NCBI RefSeq assembly: GCF_020520425.1
Contig: NC_079487.1
Location: 112,936,141-113,000,140 of the forward strand
Length of the DNA: 64,000 nucleotides
DNA from: Spinacia oleracea
Taxonomy: Eukaryota > Streptophyta > Magnoliopsida > Caryophyllales > Amaranthaceae
Direction of reading: 5' to 3'
Shown: positions 5,301 to 58,615 of the stretch, one piece after another
Numbering within the stretch: position 1 is the first letter of the stretch
How the letters are laid out: each line of letters begins with the position of its first letter
The notes under the pieces: model-generated
The model's input: only the letters and a program-made list of their open reading frames with translations
The model's database searches: none
Told to the model about the DNA's origin: nothing
Program-made: the position numbers and the translations under genes

Positions 5301-6014
5301 AGTCTTATGGCTGATTACAATTGCAAGACACATTCATGGATAGAGAGGTTATATGGTTTGAAAGAGAAATGGTGTCCTGCATATAACAAAGAGTGGTTTT
5401 CTGGGGGTATTTTATCTTCTCAAAGGAGTGAGACCACAAACCATTCTATTTCTAGGAGGTTGCATAAAGCGAACGGTTTATGTGATTTTTATAAGTGTTT
5501 TTTGGATATAATTGATGAATGGAGAAGTAAGGAGAACAAGGGAGATTATAATTCTTCTACTGGAAATAGATATTACGCATGTGCGGATAACATGTTATGT
5601 TTGCATGCGCGGGATGTGTACACCATTGCAATATAATTTGATATTTGAGCAACGATTCATCAAAGCAATTGGTTTGAGGTGTCAACGCATTTCCTATGAG
5701 TTTCTAGTTTCTGAGTATATTGTTGGGCATCCTACAAAGGACTTCATTAGACATGTTGTGAAGTTTAATGAGCAAGAGATGGTTGTTGATTGTACTTGCA
5801 AGTCATATGGAGAAATAGGCATTCTTTGTTCTCATATTCTTAGAGTTTTTATTGTCCATAATGTTGAAGAGATTCCCAAACAATACATTATGAAGAGATG
5901 GACCAAAGAGGCTATGAACACGATTGTTGAAGTAGGAGAAGATAGAGATAATGAAGTAAGTGTTGTTTCTGCTTCAGTTTGGAGGATGCAGCATAAGAAA
6001 TTGCATTAAAGTTA

Positions 6015-7795
6015 CGGATTTTTCATGAAATACCCCCGAATTATGGCGTAATTCACCAAATGCCCCTCGACTTTCAGAAATTCACCAAATGCCCCTCACA
6101 AATGACTTAATACCCAAAATACCCTTACTAATGACGCGCCGTTAGTCCTCCGTTAGCCTAATTTTTAAATTCACCAAATACCCCTATTTTATTACTTATT
6201 TCATATAATACCCCTATTCTGAAACTTAATTCACCAAATACACATAACTTAAAATTACCCATTTTGATGCTCAGCGGCTAGTTTTTATGTTTGAAAATTA
6301 GTCGTTGCTTATTGTTTGCTTATAAAAACCCCTTTTCTGACTATTTATTGTAGTTTTTCTATTGTTTGTTAATTGCATATCATTTTTGTCATGAGTTTTC
6401 TTTCAAAATCATCATCCACACCCATGAATCCACATATGTAAGAGTCCCAAACAATTTCTAATATTATGGGAGGAAATTTCCATATGAGGCTCCGATACAA
6501 CACTCAATAAGTTTCAATTATGATCCAATAAGTTCAGGCCTCATCCAGTAAAGACAATGCACTTTAGCTGAGCAAAAGGCCAAAAAACCCCATTTTCAAA
6601 GGGATCTTATGTAAGTGAAGCTGAAGTAATTCAATCTAAAGCTAACACCTTAATTTTCTTATTGTCCGAATGGTAAAGAAACTAAGAAATCAAGTTCAAT
6701 AACACATACATTTTTATCACAACCTCGATTTCAACTTGGATTCATGATGTGAAAATCTTGAGTTTGGAGGCAAATCTTTGTGCCAAGATTCATGTTTTTT
6801 CACTGGTTCATGAGCTTTGGAACATACCTTAGTTTCATTTTTTTTTCTTGTTCCCTCAAATCCAAAAATAGACATTTGTCCATAAATCTGACCATGTCAA
6901 TAGGACCTAGCTCAAAAGAAAAGTGGGAAAACCTTTATGCCTCGACTGTAAGGTTGAGAGAAAGTTAGGAGATTGAAGAAAGATGTTTGGAGGCAGTAGA
7001 GACAGGAGACAAAAGGGAGTTAACGTTAAATATGTGGCATGGAAGCAATAGAAGCCGAGGTAGCTGGAACATATGCGTTAGAATAAAATTAATAAGAGCT
7101 TTATTTTTAATCTGTTTGCATATGTTAAAGATATTTCCCATATTGAAAAAGGAATACCTTCCGATTGCGTGGTAAATATAATTAATTGGTCACATAAAGA
7201 ATAAGGTACAAAAGAAGTAGCTATTTTCTTGAAGAGTTGCGACGTTTTGAGGTGTTTTTAGGAGTGTTTTCTGTTTTAGTGTTGTACCGGAGCTTCAGAT
7301 TGAGTGTTGTATCAGATATTCGGATGTCAAATTTTCTCCCATGATAACAAAATTTATTTGGGACTCTTACATATGTGGACTCATTGGGTGTGGATGATGA
7401 TTTTGAAAGAAAACTCATGACAAAAATGATATGAAATTAACAAAATAATAGGAAAACTACAATAAACCGTCAGAAAAAGAGTATTTATAAGCAAACAATA
7501 AGCAACGGCTAATTTTCAAACACAAAAACTAGCCGTTGAGCATCAAAATGAGTAATTTTAAGTTATTGGTATTTGGTGAATTAAGTTTCTGAATAAGGGT
7601 ATTTGGTGAAATAAGTATTAAAATAGGGGTATTTGGTGAATTGGAAAATTAGGTTAACGGAGGACTAACGGCGCATCATTAGTAAGGGTATTTTGGGTAT
7701 TAAGTCATTTGTGAGGGGCATTTGGTGAATTTCTGAAAGTCGAGGGGCATTTGGTGAATTACGCCAAAATTCGGGGGTATTTCATGAAAAATCCG
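6015..7795. mobile_element. MULE-like non-autonomous element with ~460-bp inverted arms
   Basis: Termini are CGGATTTTTCATGAAATACC and its complement. The 9-bp duplication TTAAAGTTA flanks the element exactly (6006-6014 and 7796-7804), the length typical of Mutator-like elements. The arms (about 6015-6480 against 7320-7795) are inverted copies, carrying CACCAAATNCCCC units and a shared ACATATGT...GAGTCCCAAA stretch. The roughly 0.8-kb middle has no transposase and only short weak frames (6780-6968, 6987-7175). It sits inside the FAR1-like gene, so the gene was there first. A sibling lies at 25568-26686 and a truncated relative starts at 46950. Confidence 0.85.
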
Positions 7796-10079: not shown

Positions 10080-10810
10080 CTGAATTGAATTGATCATGAA
10101 CTAAAATGAAATTAACTAAACTAAACTGTACTGAACTGAACGTAACTGAACTTAACTTAACTGAACTTAACTTAACTGAATAATAAATAATTAAAAATTA
10201 CTATGTACTACCTCTGTTCCTTAATGTTCTTTACGCTTTAAAATATGTGTCCAAAGTATGAAAACTTTGAGCGTGAATTCTCACTGTTATATACATCAAA
10301 ATGTTTTCATGTAAGATCGATCTTATTAGGCTGGTCTTGTTATGCATTTTCAAAATATCAAATTTTTATAATTTTTTCACATACATAATTGGATATATAA
10401 ACGGTTAAATATTTCATTGGAGTCCGTGCAAATAGTAAGCGTAAATAACTTTAAGGAACGGAGGTAGTAATAAATAAGAATTAATAGTTAAATACTAAAT
10501 AATTATTAATTATTAATTAATAATCAGTAATTAATTACTAAATAATAATAAAGTATAGTAATTAATAATAAATAAATAATTATTAATAATTAATAGTAAA
10601 TAATGTAAATAATATACAAATAATAATAATAACAATAATAACAATAATAATAATAATAAGTTGAATTGAATTGAATTAAACTAAACTTAACTTAACTTAA
10701 CTTAACTTAACAGAAAAGAATTGAAATTAACTGAAATGAACTAAATGCTCCTGAACTGAACTAAATTTAACTGAAAAATAAGCATGAAACTGAAATTAAG
10801 CTAAAAAGAA
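10080..10810. repeat. Low-complexity region of AACTGAACTTAA-type words, split by a MITE
   Basis: Both sides of the MITE at 10208-10467 consist of degenerate 5-6-bp words (CTGAA, CTTAA, TGAAC) and TAA/TAAT runs, with (TTAAC)n at about 10685-10710. No gene can be read in it. The preceding stretch 9640-10080 also shows no gene. Confidence 0.6.
10208..10467. mobile_element. Stowaway-type MITE
   Basis: Terminal sequences CTACCTCTGTTCCTTAA and TTAAGGAACGGAGGTAG are near-perfect complements and are flanked by TA (10206-10207, 10468-10469). Length is 260 bp. The subterminal TTCTTTACGCTT pairs with AAGCGTAAATAAC on the other side. A related copy lies at 55663-55934. Confidence 0.85.
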
Positions 10811-16300: not shown

Positions 16301-19024
16301 CTATGTTAACCAGCCACACAGATCCATGGTTCCTAAAATTCACCAAGATGGTACTTTATTAATTATTTATAATGAAGAAAAACATAGTAGTACTGGCTTA
16401 CTGCACAAAACCACAGTTTAGTACTCCCTCCGTTTTGAATACTCGCAACACTTGTGCTTGCACGTAGTTTATGAATGTTTGGATGTAGTACATATAAATG
16501 AATAAACTAATGTACAAATGGGGTAAATAGAGATATTTTAATTGTTTAAGTAAGAGAGAAATAATAAATTGACGCAAGTGGGGTAAGTAGGTGAAAGAAA
16601 TAATAAAGAATCAGTTATCCAATACCAAAAGAGGAAGTGTTACAAATATTCAGAAACGACCGAAAAAGACAAGTGTTGTAAGTATTCAGAAATGGAGGGA
16701 ATAAGAGAATGTCTGATTACTACATAAAAACTTGTCTATTCAGCTACAAAGAAAATAATACAAAGCAGGGAAAAAGTGGGGATATTTACATTTGTACATG
16801 TAGTCTGAAAATCCTCAACAGTCTAAGAAGTACTCCCTCGGTATTTATTTAAGAGATACACTTGGCCGGGCACGGGTATTAAGAAGAAAAATTGAATGAA
16901 ATAAAGTAATAAAACAAGTAGGGTTGGATAGATATTTTAATAAGTAAAACAAGTGGGGACCATGTTATTTTAGGGGAGTGGGGGGTGGGGGTGGGGTGTG
17001 GATAGATTATTTAATTAGATGGTGGGGTTGATAAGTTACTAAAAATGGCAAGTGTATCTCTTAAATAAATACGGCCGGAAAAGGCAAGTGTATCTATTAA
17101 ATAAATACGGAGGGAGTAAAAAATTATTACAACCTTAGCATCCTTAGACGCTCCCAAATGAGGAGTAGGGCAGGCTTTCCTGTGTAGTAGACTAGTAGTA
17201 ACTAATAATATTAGGATCCTAAACTAAATGCACTGGGATTGTAGATTATACACTCCCTCCTTTTGTCTAAATAAACATGGATCTGCATATATGATCAATT
17301 TTTACTACAAAAGCTAAAGATTAAAATGCAAACCATGAGTGAAGCTTTCTGTAGATACGTGTAAGAAATAAGAAAAATAACCCATGTAAAATGTGCCATT
17401 TGCTAGCAAAGAGTCATTGAAAAAATTCCCGAGACATGTACATAATGTTGAAATTTATAAATTAAATCAACAAGGTTGTATGGGTGCCTATGCAGTTTGT
17501 TAATATATCGACTAAAAAGGTTTCCACATCCCAACCGCCAAACCACCTTCAAAAATAGGGGCAGATAACCAAACTATGAAGTAGATTATATCTTAGGTAC
17601 AAGACACACTTCAGCACCAAACATAATAAAACAAAAAGCATCAAAGTTTTGTGCATGGAAAAAATGAAAAGAGAAGGGCCATTACAAAATTAATCATTAA
17701 ACTTTTTTGAGACAGAGAAATGACATTAATACAAAAATATACCTTAAAAATGGAAGGTTCAACATCTTCCACAACCACTGTATCCATATTTGGGTTTCCC
17801 ACAAGTCCAAAGAACTGTGCTCTAAATACAGGAGAACGAGCAGCAAGCACCAACTTATGGGCATTGAATTTCTCATCGCCAACTTTGAAAACAATGTCGC
17901 ACCCAATTTCATTCTCAAGCAAATCCTTAAAGGACCTACCCATATCAGACGGTGGAATGTTTATACTATATTGTTTGGGTCTCTCCATCCGACTTCTAAC
18001 AACTCCGACAGTGCACTCCAATAGAAGACAATCATTCTTCAAAAACTCGGACTGCTCCAAGGAAGCTCTCCTGAAAAAACGCTTGTAGCCCCTGAAAAAT
18101 TGTCAAATCCCACAAGTAGTCAGGCGAGAAAACGTGCCTCCGAACAGAAAAAAGGGAATACCAGGACCCTAAGTGCTTTGAGAATATTTTATAGGCTTCC
18201 TAATCTCCGAAATAAGCCTAATCTCCGAAATTAAATACTCAGTAGCAAAACAAACCCAGCATCTATCATACAAGTGCCAAAACAATGCACCTGGCATTCA
18301 TCTTGAACTCAGTAAACAATAAGATATCCCAGAAAAGGTACTAATCAAACCAAAATCAAGCATTCAAGCTCATATTTCTACCATACCAATCTTCCAAACA
18401 TATCTAATGCTATAATCTAACCTAAAAATACACCATTCTATAGTATTTCGTAGTAATGGGGAACTGAGCAACTTAAGCATGAGTCCACATTTTAAAATAC
18501 ACTCTTAAATCTTGCACATCATTAGAAAATACTGTAAGCATGAAAATCACTCACAAGAACCAATAAAAAACTATGATTAACAAATAATTAAGAGCAACAT
18601 ACCACATACTCCCTTTATACTTCAAAGTATAAGGACCGCTTTCGAGAGCGCGATGAAAATGACTATGAACCTTGTGTTTCTTGTTCCCAGTTTGATCCAC
18701 CAACGTCAATTCAAACAACGCCCGAACATCCGTCCCATCACTCGCCAACGCTAAAAATACCGAAACGTAGCTCGAGTTATCTTCGGGGTTTTTCCCATCC
18801 GGATAGAAATATACCGCCCAATCATACCCACCTACGGTAAAAATATCACTGGAAATGTATTTTCCAGCACCCATGCCTTTGGCGAGGGAATACCCCTTGA
18901 TTTCGAAACGGTGGGACCCATTTGCAGTTTCGATTACGGACTTCGAGGAGGAAAGATTGGAGGTTTCCGTATGCTTATAGATTTTAACGGTATCAGTGAC
19001 TTCGCCGGCATCAAAATTAACCAT
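13302..19024 (-). CDS. BPM: MATH-BTB protein, BPM family (CUL3 E3 ligase substrate adaptor)
   Basis: Four exons, in transcription order: 19024-18603, 18091-17743, 15579-15309, 13519-13302. All introns are GT-AG and the phases join to 1260 nt, 419 residues plus stop, close to the roughly 400-residue family size. Exon 1 holds the MATH domain ([39 protein letters not shown], residues about 35-140). Exon 2 gives [20 protein letters not shown] and the BTB start ([33 protein letters not shown]). Exon 3 completes BTB ([16 protein letters not shown]) and begins the BACK-like helices ([19 protein letters not shown]). Exon 4 ends with [20 protein letters not shown] and a Lys/Arg-rich tail (RRLRRRL), a possible nuclear signal. 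BPM proteins bridge CUL3 to targets such as AP2/ERF and HD-ZIP factors. The start at 19024 has a strong context (A at -3, G at +4). Introns 2 and 3 carry MITEs and filler. The family is certain; which BPM paralogue is not. Confidence 0.95.
16424..16701. mobile_element. Stowaway-type MITE in BPM intron 2
   Basis: Ends are CTCCCTCCGTTTTGAATACT and AGTATTCAGAAATGGAGGGA, complementary with a few mismatches and flanked by TA (16422-16423, 16702-16703). Length 278 bp. The AATACTCGCAACACTTGTG segment is shared with the copy at 55961-56214. Confidence 0.8.
16833..17116. mobile_element. Stowaway-type MITE in BPM intron 2 (same family as 53677)
   Basis: Ends are CTCCCTCGGTATTTATTTAA and TTAAATAAATACGGAGGGAG with TA on both sides (16831-16832, 17117-17118). 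Length 284 bp. The interior has TACACTTGGCCGGGCACGGG and a G-rich tract at 16976-17000. The element at 53677-53958 is the same family in opposite orientation. Confidence 0.9.
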
Positions 19025-20639: not shown

Positions 20640-23164
<2,525 letters not shown>

Positions 23165-25567: not shown

Positions 25568-26686
25568 CGGTTTTTTCATGAAATGCCCTCGAGGTTTGAA
25601 AAAATTCACCAAATACCCCTGCACTTTTCATAATACACCAAATACCCCTAATTCAAAACTTAATACACCAAATACCCTTGATGACGTCATCAACTCCTAA
25701 TCAACCCAATTAACATATAATTAACTCAATTAATCCCTAATTAACTCCTATACTCAACCCACCCATTAACAAACCTAAGTAACCTATCCAATAACCCAAT
25801 AACCCACCCATTTATTTTCTCTCTTCCCTCCCTTCTGCCATTAACCACCACCGCCTTCATTGTCAGCTCCCTCCTTCTGCTTCCTTCCTTGTCTCGCAGC
25901 TCAGCTCAATCGAAGAAAAACCCGGTCATCCCTCTTCCTCTCTCCTCCCCTTTTTTTCTCCTCTGTATTCCACCGTTTACTGCACCACCGCTCACCGAGA
26001 AGTTGGTGCAACAAGGGATGATGTTGAGATTGCTGTTAGCTTCAAATTGGGTCGACACAAGACAAATGGGTAATTTGAAATCCCGCTCACCGATTTTTAC
26101 TTTTGTTTATCTACCAATTTTTTTTTTCTAGAATTGAGTTTATTTAATTCTTATAGAAATTAGGGAATTTAATTGGAGAATTGAGGAATCCAATTGGAGA
26201 ATTGTGAATTTTGATTGGGGAATTTTGAAGGTTCAACATGGAGGAGAGAGAAAGCTTGAACTAACTCCAATGGTGATTCCATGGCAGTGGGGAGAGAAAT
26301 AGAAGGGAATGGGTGAGATGAGAAACGAGATGGAGATGGGATGGTGGTTGGAGCGAGGTCGGCGGGCAGCAGTAGGCGAGCAATGGTGTCGGGTGGTTTC
26401 TATGGTGGATTGGTGGTAATGTGGGAAGGAGAGAGAAGATACAGAGGTGGAAGAAGCAAGTAGGAAAGAAAGAAAAGAGAATAGGAAGAGAAAAAGGAAA
26501 AAGACATGTGCTAATTGGAGCTTAACGGGTTAATTATATGTTAATTGGGTTAATTAGGAGTTGATGACGTCATCAAGGGTATTTGGTGTATTAAGTTTTG
26601 AATTAGGGGTATTTGGTGTATTATGAAAAGTGCAGGGGTATTTGGTGAATTTCTTTAAACCTCGTGGGCATTTCATGAAAAAACCG
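25568..26686. mobile_element. MULE-like non-autonomous element with ~165-bp TIRs
   Basis: Termini CGGTTTTTTCATGAAATGCC and its complement are flanked by the exact 9-bp duplication TTTAATTTT (25559-25567 and 26687-26695). The inverted arms (25568-25732 and about 26527-26686) contain repeated CACCAAATACCCC units and TGATGACGTCATCA, a palindrome near the inner end of each arm. It belongs to the family of 6015-7795 by shared termini and arm units. The interior (25800-26500) is CT-rich then AG-rich, with an 80-codon frame at 25889-26131 that I do not recognise. Confidence 0.85.
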
Positions 26687-38861: not shown

Positions 38862-41800
38862 AAACAACAACAACTACAACAACAAAGCCTTATATTTGGG
38901 GTCGGCTAACATTAATCGTCATAGGAGATCGTAATTGTGACCAATCAAACCAGAAAGGAGCGGGAAATTAAAAGAATAAATAAGGAAGAGGGAGAAAGTG
39001 GAATTAATAAAAGTAAGATAAGAGGAAAATATTATAAGAGATAATAAAAATAAGTAAAGTTTAAAATAAAATAAAATAAGTACATTTCAAAATACCATTT
39101 TAAAAAAAACGCAAGTAAAAGTAAGAGAGTCAAAATGGAAGATGTATAAATCAAATGAAGTCATCAAAGTATATTCTCTCCTTCCACTCTGTCCTATCCT
39201 ACATCATGTTTTCCTCAATCCCAAGTAAGCTTATATGTTGCTCAATCACCTTCCTCCAAGTTTTCTTAAATCTTCCCCTACCCCTTGCAATTCTATCACT
39301 TTGCCACCCTTATAGCCTCCTAACCGGGACATCACTTTATCTTCTGCTTACATGCCCATCTTAAACGATTTCCCATCATCTTAAACTCAATCGTTGCAAC
39401 CCCTACTTTCTTCCTAATAATCTCATTCCTCAAACGATCATTTCTTGTATGCCCACACATCCAACGTAACATGCGCATCTCCGCCACATTCATCTTATGC
39501 ACGTGGCAATGTTTCACTGCTAGCACTCCATGCTGTATAACAACGTCGGTCGAATCGTCGTGCGGTAGAATTTTCCATTCAATATTTGGGGCATGCCTGG
39601 ATCACATTGGATCACATAGGAACCCTGTGACACTTTTCCACTTCAACCAACCTACTTTGATTCTATGAGCCACATCGCCATCCAATTCCCCATCCTTTTG
39701 GATAATAGATCCTAAATAACGGAACATTTCAGAACCTTGGACAATTTTCCCATCTAAGGTAATCGTCTCTGTCTCTCTGTATTGGACTCCACTAAACTTA
39801 CACTCCACATATTTTGTCTTGTTTCTTCTCAGCTTAAAACCCCGAGATTCCAAAGTTTATCTCCATAACTCCAACTTACTTTCCACTCCTTCTTTGGTTT
39901 CATCAATCAGCACAATATCATCTACAAACATCATGCACCAGGGTATACCATCTTGAATTGATCTCTTCAATTCGTCCATGACTATAGCAAAAAGAAACGG
40001 GCTAAGTGCGGAACCTTGATGCACTCCAATCGTAATGGGGAATTCTTCGGTCTTACCAACACTAGTTCACACATGTGCTAACTCCCTCGTACATGTCCTT
40101 GATGATATCAATATACTTCATCAGAATTCCTTTCCTACTTAATGCCGACCAAAGAATTTCCCTCGGTACCTTATCATACGCCTTCTCCAAATCAATGAAA
40201 ACCATATGTAAATCTTTCTTCTTATCTCGATAATTCTCCATTAGTTGCCTTATAAGATGAATGGCCTCCATAGTCGATCTCTAAGGCATAAATCCAAACT
40301 GGTTCTCCGAAATCTTCACAGTTCTCCTAATCTTAGCTCAATAATCCGCTCCTAAAGTTTCATAGTATGACTCATTAGTTTGATTCCTCGATAGTTGGCA
40401 CAATCCTGGACATCACCCTTATTCTTGTACAAGGGGATGATAATATTTTTCTTCCACTCTAATGGCATCCTATTACTTTCCCAAATCTTGTTGAAAAGGG
40501 TTGTTAATCATACAACCCCTCTCTCTCCCAAGCATTTCCAAACTTCGATAGGTATGCCATCGGGCCACACTGCCCTCTTGCGTCCCATCTTTTTCAATGC
40601 CATTTCAACTTCTCTCTTTTGAATTATTCGCATAAAGAACAAAAATTGGAGAGTGAGATTTTGTATAGCTAATTCATGATCCTCTACTAATGGTCAGCTT
40701 TCTGACTTACTTTTCCACATATGACAGACTTGCTTTCTTTGAGGTTAAACCACATTGGTCTGAGTTACTTTGACATACTTTGACATAAACCCAATTTGAG
40801 TCTCAGTGATGTTATCGAACAAATTACAAAAGATCCACATTAAATAGGTAGCTTTTTCTATATTTTAGGTGCTTAACATAGGGAAGACCATGATTTATGT
40901 AAGTGGTGAAATATCCAAAATGTACAGATGTTGGGCAACTAGTCGCGTTGTGCAAATAATAAGCTTTTTCAGTCACTTATTAAAGATTTTGTATTTCCAA
41001 TATTAACATTATTATATCTTTGGTTTTTCATATCATTCATCAAGATTTTTATCACCTCCTAAAGGGTCTGTGTCAATTATTAAATGAAATTACATATCAA
41101 AAAATGATAATAACCTTTTGTGTGTCAATTGTTAAAATTTGAATATGAACACTTAGTTATGTATCATCACTACATTTTGATTACGAAATATGAGTTATCT
41201 CATCTCATGCAAAACCATGAAAAATTGAAAACCCTTTTTCGCTCAGCTTTACCCAGTTCTCCTCTAAAGGTAGTTTAGTGATATTGGACCATCCTATTTG
41301 GCCAAATACCAAGTGACAAACTCATAAATTAATTATGTTACCAATCCTCTCTTCCTTTTATTTAAACAAGATCCTGTAAAATAACATAGTTAAATGTAGT
41401 TTTCATTTTTTATTATTAATAGAATTCAAAACACCTTTTTATATATATATAGTTACAAATCTATCATTGCTAGCTAGAGACAAACTCTCTGTAGTCTGCA
41501 CTATGCATGCTACCACACACATCTATTGCGTACAAAACTTTGTGAAATAAGTATGACTATTTGTAGATGCTTGCTATCAGTGGCTAACAAAAGAAAATGA
41601 TCAAGAATAAGTTACGGCATATAACCTGCCCTCCGTAATGCTTTTAGTACTTCCCCCAATAAAGTTTGCTTTTGCTTCCTGGCAGCAACTGCAATATGTG
41701 ATCCATTGGATAGCTCAATTGAAATATCCAGATCTCCCCAGCGTGTAAAGAGCTGAGACAAGAAAGACCCAAATGGTTCCACGGTAGCACCTAATAGCAG

Positions 41801-46949: not shown

Positions 46950-47963
46950 CGGTTTTTTTTCATGAAATGCCCATGCGATTTTAAAGAAATACTCTACATG
47001 AATACTCTTAACTTTTCGAAAATGCACCAAATATCCTTGAGATTTGTGAAAATGCGTCAGATATCCTTACTAACTAACGGCGTTAATCGGTTAGTCATTA
47101 GCCTCTAATTAAATCAATTTATGGCTAACCTGCTAAATTAATCCACTAACTTATTCCATTAACCCACTTAACCAAAGGTTGCCAGAAAAAGAAAAGAAAA
47201 ACAAAACCAAACCCTTTAACTCTTTAAGTTCTTCCCCGTTACTTCTTCCCCATGCTTCTCTTCCATCTCCATCATGACCATCTCCAATTTCTCTTCCAAA
47301 ATGAAAAGAAGTATTTCCACTTAGGCTCCGTTTGGTAGGACGTAAAACGTTTTCATTGTAAAATGATTTTCCATGGAAAACATTTTTCAAGGGAAAACAC
47401 AATTCCAAACTAGTTTTCCTTTGTTTGGTAACTTATGGAAAATGGGAGAAGATGGTGAAGATTGAGGGGAAGAAAGGAGAGGGATGTAAGGAGGAATGAA
47501 GGAAAAGTGGTTTCCCTTCATTTCAAATGGAAAAGGGTTTTCCACTTTTGAGGGAGTCATGGAAAATTGTTTTCCATCCCTTATCCAACCAAACAACGTA
47601 AAATGATTGAAAAGGGGAAAATCGTTTTTTATGAAAACGTTTTACGCCCTACCAAACGGAGCCTTAGAGAATTAACCCAAACATTACAAAAGAAGCCAAA
47701 TGTTTGTTCTTCCAATTTATCTTTCATCTCCATCTTTAGTTCCTCTTCTCGATTTCCCCTTATATCTCCTCTCGTTCTCCTTTCTCTGCCCTCTCAATCT
47801 CTCACTTTCTCTCTCTAAAAAGGGAAAGTTGAAGAAGAACAAAATGATATTTTGGGTTAAATTACTTTTTTAAAAATTGATTTTGTTTTTGAAGAAATGG
47901 GGATTAAAGCGATAAATTGGGGGTGGTTTAGTTGTTGTGAAGGTGGAGCTGTGTTGTTGTGGG
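46950..47963. mobile_element. Truncated MULE-like element (same family as 6015 and 25568)
   Basis: The left end CGGTTTTTTTTCATGAAATG and the following arm with GCACCAAATATCC and GGCGTTAATCGGTTAGTCA correspond to the arms of the two intact family members. No right end is present: after about 47960 the sequence passes into an LTR retrotransposon, which probably inserted here. A Tourist-type MITE (47324-47663) lies inside. Confidence 0.6.
47324..47663. mobile_element. Tourist-type (PIF/Harbinger) MITE
   Basis: Perfect terminal repeats GGCTCCGTTTGGTAGG and CCTACCAAACGGAGCC are flanked by TTA on both sides (47321-47323, 47664-47666). The subterminal part continues imperfectly inverted (CGTAAAACGTTTTCAT against ATGAAAACGTTTTACG). 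Length 340 bp. Terminus and TTA duplication are diagnostic. The frames over it are not genes. Confidence 0.92.
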
Positions 47964-51955: not shown

Positions 51956-53459
51956 TGACTTGTTCATCTTGCCCACCATTAACCATTTACTACAAATCTA
52001 CAATGGATCCATTTACTACAAATCTACAATGGATAACATTATTGCTAGATTACCCTTCAATGGAAGTATAATGACCTAATTGCCCTCATGATTGCTTTAA
52101 CTATTACCCAAAAGGCCAAAACTGACCAATCATTAAGTAGGAACGCATTAATTGTCCATCCACATTTTCGGTATTTACCAATTTGATCCGTAATGCATTA
52201 TTATTATGCATACGTGTATTATCACATAATAAATAAATCATAAATAAGTAAATAAATAAATAATGAAATTTTCTATAGATAATATGTGTGCCAACTTGTA
52301 GCTCTTCAAACGTTTGAAAAGGCCTTTCAATTTGGAATCCAACTTTTTTCTCCTGGAAATTTAGGATAAGCCTTATTTCCACTTTCTTCCACTCAAAATA
52401 AAATAAAATAAATAAATAAATAAATTAAGATGAAAACTTCTTTGTTCTCTCCTTGAATGATTCTGTTTTTCGTTCAAGTAAAGTTGACTATTAGTCTTAC
52501 CAAGTATTCTTTTGACTAATTAATGACCATTTGCCCATTTGGGGTTAGTTGTGATTTTTTGTTTTCGATTTTTTCGAGAATTAAAATCAACATGGAAAAA
52601 TAATACTACCCTTGTAAATTTGTATATATGCCTATACAATACGGCAATATAGTAAGGCGAGTTTTATAAGAGACCTGTCCTGCATCCGCTTCAAGTAGCA
52701 GGGATAGGGAGTTTGACGGGTGATGAGGTGGGGATGTTGGTAAAATAATTGTTGATATCGAAAAAAATTATAGACAAGGAGAGGATATTTGATTATATAT
52801 CTCATAAGAATAATGTTGCGTCATGATATGGAGGCCACTGTCTTAGAAGCCAATTTCGTTACCCCATTGGTGCAGGGTTATAGTGATGAACGCCGCTCAA
52901 AAGTTAATACAATGTACACCTCCGAAGTTTACACCTCGAACTCGAAGGTTGAAATTGCTCAATAACTACGCAGATCTTGAATGGAGATATTAGAGTTTGT
53001 GCAATCAGGGTTTTCCGTCTCTCAGCTCCATAAATCTAAATAATATAATAACCAAGAAAAGAATAATAGGAGATTATTTATATGTTTCACGAGAAAAGGA
53101 AACAAAATAAGGTGGGTTCAAGCCTTGCCGATCCACTGGGCCATTGAACCCGACCAAACTCATATTTGAAAACTTCCGAATGCATTATTAACTGTTCGGG
53201 TTTAGGTATAAAAATCGTACCCGACGCATGTGATGGGGTGGGTATGAATTTTGTCTTGAGTCTGCCTCATCCTCACCCGCTCGACTGGCCTCATCCCCAC
53301 CCGCCTCGCTTCATAGTCGTCAATCCATTATGAGTATCATTTTCTACGTGAATTAAAAAAATAAAAGTATCTAAAAGTTGAACAAAATTATTTTTATGTG
53401 ATTAGATTTGTTTGTATGTAATAAATTCGAGTGAGATTTAATTTTTAAGTTTACTTGTT
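51956..53459. other. No gene identified
   Basis: AT-rich spacer. A 26-bp phrase containing CATTTACTACAAATCTACAA is tandemly duplicated at 51986-52032. The part 53100-53330 has a GC-richer patch with CATCCNCACCCGC words, complementary in style to the GGGATGGGGATG patch at 56580-56760. Short frames here match nothing known to me. Confidence 0.4.
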
Positions 53460-53676
53460 GGCAAATTTGGCAAATACAATCTAATAAACTTCACTATTTG
53501 TCAATTGGAAAATTTGTAATTATTAATCCAACCTTTGCCCGATTTTCTTTAATTAAGCCTACCTATGCGATATTTCTAAATAATCCAACCTTTATGGCCC
53601 AACTGCTATTATTAAGCCTAACAAGTTACTAACCTGCTATAGGCGGTATTCACCCTTACGTGGCATATAACAATTA

Positions 53677-53958
53677 CACCCTCCGTATTTATTTAAGGGA
53701 TACACTTGCCTTTTCCGGCCGTATTTATTTAAGAGATACATTTGCCATTTTTAGTAAGTTAGCAACCCCACCATCTAATTAAATAATATATCTACACCCC
53801 ACCCCCACCCCTACCCCCTAAAATGACATGGTCCCCACTTGTTTTTCTTATTAAAATATCTACCCAACCCCACTTGTTTTATTACTTTATTTCATTTAAT
53901 TCTTTTTCTTAATACTCGTGCCCGGCCAAGTGTGTCTCTTAAATAAATACGGAGGGAG
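53677..53958. mobile_element. Stowaway-type MITE, third nesting level
   Basis: Ends CACCCTCCGTATTTATTTAA and TTAAATAAATACGGAGGGAG, flanked by TA (53675-53676, 53959-53960). Length 282 bp. It is the reverse-orientation relative of 16833-17116, with the same CTTTTCCGGCCGTATTTAT and ATACTCGTGCCCGGCCAAG segments. Confidence 0.9.
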
Positions 53959-54640
53959 TATAATTTATTTATTTTCCTTTATTTTCTTTAATTTCTATTT
54001 TAATTTTCGTTCCTCTCTCCTCTGCGATTTTCTGCTTCATCTCTAAACTCCTCTCCATTATTTCTCTTCTACCTCTTCTCCACCATTGTCGATCCCTGAT
54101 ACCTCTCCATTCGAAGTTCATCAAAAATAATCAGCAATTGCTATGGCTGGGGTAAAGCAATTGCCTATTGGATCTGGATCTTCTTCAAATTCAAGGTTTT
54201 TTTTTCTTTCTAAATTTTCAACAAGACCACAATAACCAACATCCCATAACATAAAAAAACTATATTATTGCAACAACTCGGGTTTTTACGAACTGACCAT
54301 CAAGGAAGCCCAAAATTCAAAATTTACCAAAAAAGGAACAAAAACGTTAAGGTTCGTAAGTTCACCTTCAATTGTACGATTTTGGATACGAAATTTGAAT
54401 GCGCGTGGATGAAGTCACCTATTTCCACAAGAAAATCGCTGATGATATCATGAATCAGTACAATTGTGGTTGAAGCAGCAGTAATGGAGGAGAGAGGAAT
54501 TGAAACACGGTACAGAGAAGAGAAGGATTTTTTGGAAAAAAAAAAAAGAAATCCTTGTTTAGGTGGCAAGTGATGATGACGTGTCCAATATTTTAGCAGG
54601 GAAACCAACTTTAGGTTGTCAACGTTTTTAACGTTGATTT

Positions 54641-54917
54641 TGTAGCAAGTAACCGGTCATCCAGGCTTAATAATAGTAGTTGGGTCATAAAGGTTGGATT
54701 ATTTAGAAATATCGCATAGGTAGGCTTAATTAAAGAAAATCGGGCAAAGGTTGGATTAATAATTACAAAATTTCCTTGACTTTGTAGCAGGTAACCGGTC
54801 ATCCAGGCTTAATAATAGTAGTTGGGTCATAAAGGTTGGATTATTTAGAAATATCGCATAGGTAGGCTTAATTAAAGAAAACCGGGCAAATGTTGGATTA
54901 ATAATTACAAATTTTCC
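54641..54917. repeat. Tandem duplication of the inner element's right arm (period 142 bp)
   Basis: TGTAGCAAGTAACCGGTCAT at 54641 and TGTAGCAGGTAACCGGTCAT at 54783 each start a near-identical copy ending in TAATAATTACAAA. Only the second copy ends exactly at the element terminus. Confidence 0.9.
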
Positions 54918-55662
54918 TTGTCAATTACAACCTTAAAATTTTAATTTTGTTAATTACAACCTTAAACTTATAAATTTATTTAAAATTACAACCGAACTTA
55001 TTTTCCGGCAAAAACCACCGGCAAATGATGTCATAATTGCTATTTTTTTTTAAAAAATTACATATTTTTCTTTAAAATAAAAAGGAAAATAAGAATTAGA
55101 AAACAAGTAATAAGAATTTTCGAAAACCCCCAATTGAAGAACCGGATGTTTTTTACAATTCCCCCAATCGAAGAACCCTAAATTGTTGAAGCTTCTCACC
55201 TTGTTTAGTAATGGAGCCCTCATATTTTGACAGAATAGAGATGGAGATTATGAAGGAAGAGTTGAAAATCTCACATTCAAGTTGGTGGTTGAGGAGACAG
55301 TTATTTAGGAGAGGAATATCGCTTAAAAAAATCACGTTAGTAAACAAAAGGATGTTGTTTCCTTCTCTAATTATTTCTAAAGGTCTGCTATTCCATTTTC
55401 TAATTCTTATTTTCCTTTTTATTTTAAAGAAATATTTTTTTTTTAAAAAAAATAGCAATTATGACATCATTTGCCGGTGGTTTTTGCCGGAAAATAAGTT
55501 CGGTTGTAATTTTAAATAAATTTATAAGTTTAAGGTTGTAATTAACAAAATTAAAATTTTAAGGTTGTAATTGGCAAATAGTGAAGTTTATTAGGTTGTA
55601 TTTGCCAAATTTGCCTTACTTGTTTGGATTTTTTTGTTGTTGCGTATGCTTTTTCCCCAATA

Positions 55663-56216: not shown

Positions 56217-57055
56217 TTTTTAAAAAGTGATTTTCTCATTATCTCTATTATGGAGTATATAAGAGAACGTCTGAGTGACGTAAATAATGGTTGTCTATTT
56301 CACCCTTTACGTACTAAAAATTAAAATTAAAATAAATTAAACACAAACCATTTTATATAATGATATAGAAGGGAATTAATTTAAAATATATTTACTAGAT
56401 TCACCAAATATTAAAACTAGGAAAAAAATATCAATAGAAAGGGAAAAAGGTAATTAACCAAATAAGTATTATTATGTATGCATTTTAAATTACAAGTATG
56501 TATCGCATGCATAGAAGACTAGTATATATATGTTGTCAGGTAATTGCTAAATAAGAAGAAAAAAACTATGGGAGTATTGGTGTGGGGATGAGACGGGGAT
56601 GGAGATCCATGCGGGTGGTGGGGCGATGGATTTTAGTTGGTATCCGTTGGGATGGGATGGGAATATGGGATGGGGATGAATTTCGTACCAGTCATATGAT
56701 GAGGCGGGAATTGGGATGAAAATTTTGGGTGGATGTCATGGAGGGAATTACATCTATCCACCACGCAGTCCACGCCCCATTAACATCCTTGGTCAAGACC
56801 AGTGACCCGGATGACACCCCTCGTCGCCCTCGAGAAGTTCAAAACGCAGTACGAGCCATAGATAAGAGATATCAGCCATTGCTCATAAAATCTTAGCAGC
56901 TAAAAACAAATTTTATGGGACCAATAATACAACCGTTGCTCATAGATAAGAGATATCAGCCAACTGCGTATAATTAGAAAGTATAATGAGTTAATGACGT
57001 CTTGTGTGTAGTGTGTTACGAACATAGGTTTTTTTAAATTCTATTCACATGATAG
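56217..57055. other. No gene identified; G-rich patch
   Basis: AT-rich sequence followed by a patch (56580-56760) of GGGATGGGGATG-like words. The patch has runs that could form quadruplex structures on the plus strand. Confidence 0.4.
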
Positions 57056-58615
57056 GGTACGTAAGAGGGCAGTGGGGCCCGACGGTATATCTATCGAAGT
57101 CTGGAGATGCTTGGGAGAGGGAGGGGTTGTATGGTTAGCAACTTTTTTCAACAAGATTTGGGGAAGTAATAGGATGCCATTAGAGTGGAGGAAAAGTACT
57201 ATCATCCCCTTGTACAAGAATAAGGGTGATGTCCAGGATTGTGCCAACTACCGAGGAATCAAACTAATGAGTCATACTATGAAACTTTGGGAGCGGATTA
57301 TTGAGCAAAGATTGAGGAGAACTGTGAAAATTTCGGAGAACCAGTTTGGATTTATGCCTGGGAGATCGACTATGGAGGTCATTCATCTTATAAGGCAACT
57401 AATGGAAAATTATCGGGATAAGAAGAAGGATTTACATATGGTTTTCGTTGATTTGGAGAAGGCGTATGATAAGGTACCAAGAGAAATTCTTTGGTAGGCA
57501 TTAAGTAGGAAAGGAATTCCGAGGAAATATATTGATATCATCAAGAACATGTATGAGGGAGTTAGTACGAGTGTGAGAACTAGTGTTGGTAAGACCGAAG
57601 AATTCACCATTACGATTTGAGTGCATCAAGGTTCCGCACTTAGCCCGTTTCTTTTTGCTATAGTCATGGACGAATTGACGAGGTCAATCCAAGATGGTAT
57701 ACCCTGGTGCATGATGTTTGCATATGATATTGTGTTGATTGATGAGACAAAAGAAAGAGTGGAAAGTAAGTTGGAGTTATAGAGACAAACTTTGGAATCT
57801 CGGGGTTTTAGGCTGAGTAGAAACAAGACGGAATATGTGGAGTGTAAGTTTAGTGGAGCCCAAAATAGAGAGACAAGGGCGATTACCTTAGATGGGAAAA
57901 TTGTCCAAGGCTCTGAAATGTTCCGTTATTTAGGATCTATTATCCAAAAAGATGGAGAATTGGATAGCGATGTGGCCCATAGAATCAAAGCAGGTTGGTT
58001 GAAGTGGAAAGGTATCACGGGGTTCTTATGTGATTCAGGCATGCCCCAAACATTGAAGGAAAAATTTTACCACACAGCAATTCTACCGGCTTTGTTATAC
58101 TGCACGGAATGTTGGTCAGTGAAACATTGTCACGTTACATTGGATGTGTGGGCATACAAGAAATGATCGTTTGAGGAATGAGATTATTAGGAAGAAAGTA
58201 GGGGTTGCACCAATTGAGTTTAAGATGATGGAAAATCGTTTAAGATGGTTTGGACATGTAAGCAGAAGATCAAATGATGCCCGGTTAGGAGGATAGAAGG
58301 GTGGCAAAGGGATAGAATTGCAAGGGGTAGGGGAAGACCTAAGAAAACTTGGAGGAAGGTGATTGAGCACGATATGAGCTTTCTTGGGATTGAGGAAAAT
58401 ATGGCGTTGGAAGGACAGAGTGGAGGGAGATAATATACATTGATGATTTCATTTGACTTATACAACTTCAATGTTTCTGATTCTCTTTATTTTTATTTTT
58501 AAAATTCTTTCAATTTTTTTTTTTTGATTTCACATGCTATTTTGAAATGTACTTATTTTACTTATTTATTTATTTTAAATTTTACTAATTTTTATTATCT
58601 CTTACAATATTTCTT
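57056..58615 (+). mobile_element. RTE-like LINE fragment, copy 2 (5'- and 3'-truncated)
   Basis: The order of motifs is the same as in copy 1: [94 protein letters not shown], then an in-frame TAG (57495-57497). Further pieces follow: [19 protein letters not shown], the active-site region reading FAYDIVLID (about 57717), a TAG near 57779, then [20 protein letters not shown]. The second aromatic-flanked Asp of FxDD is Tyr, so the catalytic pair is broken. The 3' UTR matches copy 1 up to about 58612; a short TA run and another element follow, so the terminal 200 nt and TTG tail are missing. Confidence 0.85.

Follow-up and report, generated by a model that had tools for sequence, protein, structure and literature searches.

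Nested MULE-like elements in spinach

Two MULE-like elements are nested at positions 53460-55615 of the window (the whole 64,000-nucleotide stretch of Spinacia oleracea DNA that was analysed), and the inner of the two belongs to a family whose retrieved copies elsewhere in the genome also have a tandemly doubled right arm. The locus as a whole is very probably explained by the nesting of non-autonomous MULEs, the inner one from a family with a once-doubled right arm, with a Stowaway MITE carried along. The nest itself is ordinary transposon biology; the amplified three-arm family is an unusual and successful variant. An earlier note on this DNA, made by reading its letters, had described the nest, and every feature that it named was found, with its duplication, where the note had placed it. 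These features are as follows, with the strand where one was assigned.

53451..53459: TSD of the outer element, left copy (TTACTTGTT), identical to 55616-55624
53460..55615: outer MULE-like element, 736 bp without the insert; long TIR, tip GGCAAATTTG, 9-bp TSD
53460..53506 (+): outer left arm, outer piece, 47 bp, broken by the inner element (I5; 96% complementary to 55569-55615)
53498..53506: TSD of the inner element, left copy (TTGTCAATT), identical to 54918-54926
53507..54917: inner MULE-like element, one left arm and two tandem right arms (39 other copies)
53507..53619 (+): inner left arm, 113 bp (I2, I3)
53675..53676: TA, left target duplication of the Stowaway
53677..53958: Stowaway-type MITE, 282 bp, with inverted ends and TA flanks
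53959..53960: TA, right target duplication of the Stowaway
53961..54633: inner interior, no transposase found (the frames scanned matched no Pfam family at E up to 1)
54634..54775 (-): internal right arm, tandem copy 1, 137/142 identical to 54776-54917
54776..54917 (-): external right arm, tandem copy 2, its end abutting the TSD
54918..54926: TSD of the inner element, right copy (TTGTCAATT)
54927..55103 (+): outer left arm, inner piece (I1, I4)
55104..55395: outer element interior, 292 bp, only its edges covered by matches listed elsewhere (best 40 of 486 candidates)
55396..55615 (-): outer right arm, unbroken; empty site for the inner insertion
55616..55624: TSD of the outer element, right copy (TTACTTGTT)
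16833..17116 (-): another Stowaway copy in the window, at 92.9% identity, lying between TAs of its own and in other flanks

Both MULE-like elements are flanked by the exact 9-bp TSDs reported earlier (TTACTTGTT for the outer element and TTGTCAATT for the inner), and the outer duplication falls within the 8-11 bp, usually 9 bp, expected of MULEs. Random pairs of flanking 9-mers matched exactly 1 time per 200,000 draws for the outer element and 4 times for the inner (11 times and 1 time, respectively, for the elements E1 and E2 described below). The inner arms are long TIRs, with inverted repeats of 113 bp (97% and 96%). The inner element interrupts the outer left arm 47 bp from the outer tip, and its in silico removal, together with one TSD copy, leaves a 736-bp outer element with a left arm that is continuous, as had been predicted. 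This restored arm aligns with the right arm without gaps over approximately 178 bp, with 2 differences in the first 164, and the similarity of these long TIRs reaches approximately 240 bp when gaps are allowed. At the position of the inner target the outer right arm reads TTGCCAATT (one difference) and is uninterrupted, such that the sequence holds its own empty site for the inner insertion. Because the inner element splits the left arm while the right arm preserves this site, the outer element was inserted before the inner, as proposed previously.

Eleven of the 18 open frames of at least 45 aa in the nest were scanned against Pfam, and none had a match at E up to 1. This agrees with the earlier statement that neither MULE-like element carries a transposase, and assignment to the Mutator superfamily is consequently based on the length of the TSDs and the form of the TIRs. 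Within the inner interior, the region 53961-54240 contains a leader-like stretch and the start MAGVKQLPIGSGSSSNSR, after which comes a possible splice donor. Counted from this start, 21 bases (MAGVKQL) are identical in 25/39 copies, and the region may be a captured or inherited first exon; with respect to gene capture, no Pfam family was detected in the inner-interior frames scanned. Viral, plasmid and prokaryotic collections contained no match, as expected for a plant.

An amplified family with a doubled right arm

The inner element was used to search its own genome (894,210,420 bases in 242 contigs, in which the window is C1:112936141-113000140). The best 40 of 4,211 candidates were scored; one was the window and the other 39 (designated below by L numbers) were fetched with their flanks. 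The DNA retrieved in the analysis contained no further inner copy beyond those chosen. At least two right arms are present in 39/39 of these copies (two in 37, three in L041 and a rearranged set in L040, which has three right arms near its end and one divergent match), but candidates were ranked by similarity to a two-right-armed query, which favours two-arm copies, and single-armed relatives could be numerous. What the sampling shows is an abundance of two-arm copies; it is no evidence for a rarity of one-arm copies. A left arm was found in 36/39 copies (partial in L025) and was absent from L037, L040 and L043; with a left arm and exactly two right arms, the arrangement of the window recurs at 35 other places, L025 being counted with its partial left arm.

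The retrieved copies are independent insertions. They have the same termini and different flanks, and a search for copies that share flanking sequence, or whose termini lie elsewhere, found none among the family copies retrieved. Exact 9-bp TSDs at zero offset flank 26/39 copies, all 26 being distinct, and direct repeats of at least 8 bp are found in 31/39 when an offset of up to 3 bases is allowed. The eight copies lacking such a repeat are L037, L040, L043, L025 (left end damaged), L009 (8/9 bases), L017 (7 bp) and L044 and L046 (none found). The 26 TSDs are 92% A+T, with T at the first position and A at position 9 in 20/26 each. A rule that the target always starts with TT was rejected: it holds for the four TSDs in the window, but in the family T occupies the second position in only 15/26.

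The two right arms are 142 bp apart in 36/37 two-arm copies (134 bp in L010), and the nine junction bases following the internal arm, TTGACTTTG, are common to 33/37. In the window these bases stand against TTGTCAATT at the left end, and there is accordingly no TSD at the internal TIR; it is the external right tip that abuts the TSD in the inner copies. Arm position 36 is A in all left arms (36/36) and all internal right arms (39/39), and in external right arms it is G in 33/39 and A in 6/39 (the window is included and L040 dropped; the left arms of L025, L037 and L043 are unusable). The shared junction, spacing and position-36 base indicate that both right arms were inherited side by side. Judged from these comparisons, the best account of the doubled right arm is a single old duplication that has been carried through many transpositions; the six external arms without G and the eight copies without a direct repeat count against it. 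The earlier note had correctly described the 142-bp tandem repeat of this arm but missed its presence in all 39 other retrieved copies, by which it is no peculiarity of the locus.

Arm number is not entirely fixed. In L041 (G000:C6:97339244-97341220) the right arm is present three times in tandem, at spacings of 141 and 142 bp, and the copy is flanked by an exact 9-bp TSD (TAAAAAGAA). It shows that the number of arms can grow, and that either a copy with three right arms could still move or the growth followed the move.

The two right tips differ in their base changes (15/390 in the internal arm vs 2/390 in the external; Fisher p 0.002), a p value that is overstated because one internal change is the same base in nine copies, including the window, that are partly related. 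The internal right tip is GGAAATTTTG instead of GGAAAATTTG in L010, L011, L012, L016, L020, L032 and the window, which are scattered over the tree. This recurrent variant may reflect ancestral variation, conversion or repeated change.

The Stowaway MITE and the order of insertion

Stowaway MITEs duplicate a TA target, have CTCCCTCCGT-type ends, encode no transposase and depend for their movement on one of the Tc1/mariner type. The MITE inside the inner element resembles them in its TA duplication and ends, but the window copy has CACCCTCC at one end, where the Stowaway of L009 has CTCCCTCC. Its location within the inner element, as noted earlier, is borne out by the TA on both sides of 53677-53958 and by empty sites: sequence reads through without a Stowaway in 37/38 other inner copies (in L023 with a small deletion over the site), the sole exception being L040, the left part of which is missing. 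In L010 and L012, 65 positions agree with the 66-bp sequence expected of an empty site with a single TA. A Stowaway-like piece also occurs in the flank of L039.

Among the 39 copies only L009 (the same place as L002, on another contig) holds a Stowaway inside, at the same TA. In the inner-copy tree L009 pairs with the window as its sister (support 0.936), with 16/1128 differences outside the Stowaway and 7/276 within it. L009 is set in flanks of its own, with a duplication that is perfect but for one mismatch (AATAATATT / AATAGTATT), which indicates that a Stowaway-bearing element has transposed. The earlier proposal that the three duplications give the order of insertion therefore stands for the outer and inner elements and is not supported for the Stowaway, as its presence at the same TA in a sister copy means that its insertion cannot be dated from the TA by itself. 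The inner element may already have contained the Stowaway when it was inserted into the outer, or else L009 descends from the nested window copy, two alternatives between which the divergences do not discriminate. More generally, a TA duplication within a mobile element dates insertion into the element and not into the locus.

Architecture of the arms

A scan of the window for inverted repeats with flanking duplications identified two further elements.

6015-7795: E1, third MULE-like element, arms approximately 498 bp and 91% alike, exact TSD TTAAAGTTA
25568-26686: E2, fourth MULE-like element, arms 176 bp and 94% alike, exact TSD TTTAATTTT

The outer and inner arms contain four degenerate units at approximately 30-bp spacing that start near the tip. 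The arms of E1 and E2 have the same layout with a different unit (starts at 8, 38, 67 and 97). Because E1 and E2 arms are themselves related (77%), this layout is represented by three TIR families, not four. A lone stretch at 46955-47036 is 75% similar to the E2 arm and is perhaps a decayed further element.

For each of the four arms (outer, inner, E1 and E2), the observed unit score was reached by 0/400 shuffles. With fixed geometry, the scores are 66 and 69 for the outer arms, 66 for the inner left arm, 60 and 59 for the inner right arms (the fourth unit being cut), 66 and 66 for E1 and 71 and 71 for E2. In the rest of the window 70/38,836 positions score at least 66 and 170/38,836 reach 60; controls of at least 64 are confined to A/T-rich simple tracts at 10447-10654 and 21895-21994. 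When the geometry was left free, a score of 66 was reached by 79/2000 stretches drawn at random from the window, and the highest-scoring of these were in tandem repeats. With TRF, periods of 27-31 were found in the outer, inner and E1 arms and none such in E2. Plain autocorrelation revealed the array in the inner arms (observed value reached by 6/500 and 3/500 shuffles) and not in the outer arm (159/500). TIRs of all four elements are thus built of sub-repeats, as in fold-back MULEs. The array is real, but the suggested role of such sub-repeats as protein-binding sites gained no support for the 30-bp units: among inner copies the units are not better conserved than the spacers (68/102 shifted masks were as low as the real one, in what is a weak test).

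No relatedness of the outer and inner arms beyond their shared tip was established by global alignment. The score was reached by 15/300 shuffles and 9/963 window stretches and, when the first 10 bases were removed, by 90/300 shuffles. The spacing of CAACCT-like cores, taken from the outer arm, is present in the inner arm (0/2000 shuffles, 0/3829 window stretches), in a test that was chosen after both arms had been viewed.

The outer family was searched for with the uninterrupted part of the element (54927-55615), and the best 40 of 486 candidates were scored. Among those listed, the matches cover the arms in pieces at 72-90%, many of them extending to the same tip, and of the 292-bp interior none covers more than approximately the outermost 25 bases. 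Of 20 places that were fetched, both arms are present in 20/20 copies, of which 19 are 432-459 bp long and one (L056) was mis-joined at 560. Exact 9-bp duplications flank the tips in 12/20 and an exact 10-bp duplication in L063, the other 7 having none. Several outer-family tips are GGAAAATTTG, identical to the tip of the inner element, a likeness that suggests, short of proof, a common or related transposase.

Comparison with known MULEs

MULEs that carry an extra TIR are the subject of Ferguson and Jiang (2012; PMC3310237), whose type 3 comprises those with one additional solo TIR at one end. The inner element has additional TIR similarity of at least 100 bp at one end only and so corresponds to this type. 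As in the account of type 3 elements in that paper, it is non-autonomous, has a tandem extra repeat of more than 100 bp at one end and has a TSD at the outer end with none at the internal repeat (PMC3310237). In tomato, another copy is reported there for only 1/12 distinct solo-TIR elements, and 'death on birth' was proposed, with an asymmetry perhaps harmful to transposition given as the reason (PMC3310237). Unlike these solo-TIR MULEs, which are described as nearly all single-copy (PMC3310237), the inner family is amplified, with 39 further copies retrieved. With dozens of insertions, it is a counter-example to 'death on birth' for MULEs with one extra repeat. No other amplified case with a one-sided extra TIR was found among the titles and abstract openings of the papers that literature searches listed.

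Fold-back type MULEs include Muta1 of Aedes (PMC5225508) and Tm1 of root-knot nematodes (PMC3169594), for both of which the cited accounts give TIR sub-units of 12-15 bp, and FARE, which is named as such in PMC4486113. The present elements resemble Muta1 and Tm1 as described in having 9-bp (or 8-9 bp) TSDs and TIRs made of sub-repeats (PMC5225508, PMC3169594), but their units are approximately 30 bp long, with four per tip, unlike the 12-15 bp units given for Muta1, Muta5 and Tm1, and no transposase was found in the frames scanned here. MuTAnT of Medicago is likewise presented as a non-autonomous MULE with modular TIRs, 9-bp TSDs and AT-rich targets; it targets (TA)n microsatellites, and a doubled arm does not figure in its description as cited (PMC4486113). 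In spinach, a 2019 repeat survey lists 167 MULE-MuDR elements and 445 MITEs (PMC6337768).

Proposed history and alternatives

The nest very probably consists of two non-autonomous Mutator-like elements, which would have been mobilised in trans, by cut-and-paste, by transposases encoded elsewhere. The outer element was inserted first, and its left arm was then the target of the inner, 47 bp inward of the tip. In an ancestor of the inner family the right arm was very probably duplicated, once. Slippage during replication, unequal exchange and the one-ended joining of a right tip to a sister copy would each give the structure observed. From then on the inner element would have moved as a whole, with cutting at its external right tip, and the internal right arm would be a passenger or an additional platform for the transposase. 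The Stowaway would have entered one lineage of the inner family and moved along with it. We infer mobilisation in trans, that the transposase is of the Mutator kind, and whatever role the internal arm may have; the nesting, the TSDs and their contact with the external right tip, the shared junction, the inheritance of the doubled arm, the independent insertions, the passenger Stowaway and its empty sites, on which this history draws, are shown by the sequences.

It is extremely improbable that the right arm was doubled only here, once the element was in place, by replication slippage or unequal exchange through a TTG that the TSD has in common with the internal breakpoint. TTG is indeed found at both breakpoints, and L041 shows that arm number is changeable, but copies at other sites have the identical junction and spacing and the base at arm position 36 is specific to the paralogue; duplication through TTG microhomology at this site is ruled out by the junction that the other copies have in common. 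Dating the duplication by divergence was also rejected: the tandem right arms (5/142) compared with the outer arms (3/178 in an initial count) gave p 0.47. The exact order of outer element, inner element and Stowaway at this site, with L009 as a later daughter of the nested copy, is unlikely. The divergences are compatible with it (outer arms 2/164, window vs L009 16/1128), but it needs the nested window copy as the donor of L009, which nothing observed favours, and L009 has the longer branch (0.012 vs 0.005) and a TSD with one mismatch.

The inner family might instead be a fold-back element in which arm length varies by slippage, such that the doubling has no meaning for transposition, a reading to which we give slightly less than even chances. 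It fits the degenerate units of approximately 30 bp in the arms, their being no more conserved than the spacers (68/102 shifted masks as low) and the existence of one copy with three right arms (L041). However, a spacing of exactly 142 bp is kept in 36/37 two-arm copies, and arm number differs only in L041 and L040. The three-arm family may also have out-amplified its single-armed kin or kept pace with them, with asymmetric ends that are compatible with transposition, and perhaps help it, and with selection on the external cutting tip while the internal tip drifts. We regard this last reading as doubtful; the tip changes invoked for selection on the external tip (15/390 internal vs 2/390 external) are partly shared by descent. 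Natural copies with two and three right arms, and with one if such exist, make it directly testable whether arm doubling is neutral, harmful or helpful.

Other features in the window

An open frame at 5512-6009 encodes a SWIM zinc finger (PF04434; E-value: 1.7e-5) and presumably resembles FAR1/MULE-transposase proteins. E1 (6015-7795) lies at its end, and beyond E1 an open frame continues in a different register. A LINE-type reverse transcriptase region is found at 57012-58166, in which the frame 57012-57497 has the conserved domain PF00078 (E-value: 6.1e-15). Peptides similar to this frame are encoded at 39324-39668 and 58116-58448, and this similarity suggests that several LINE copies are present in the window. 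Long arrays of 21- and 42-bp repeats occupy 20841-23155, around a (TA)n tract at 21940-22067.
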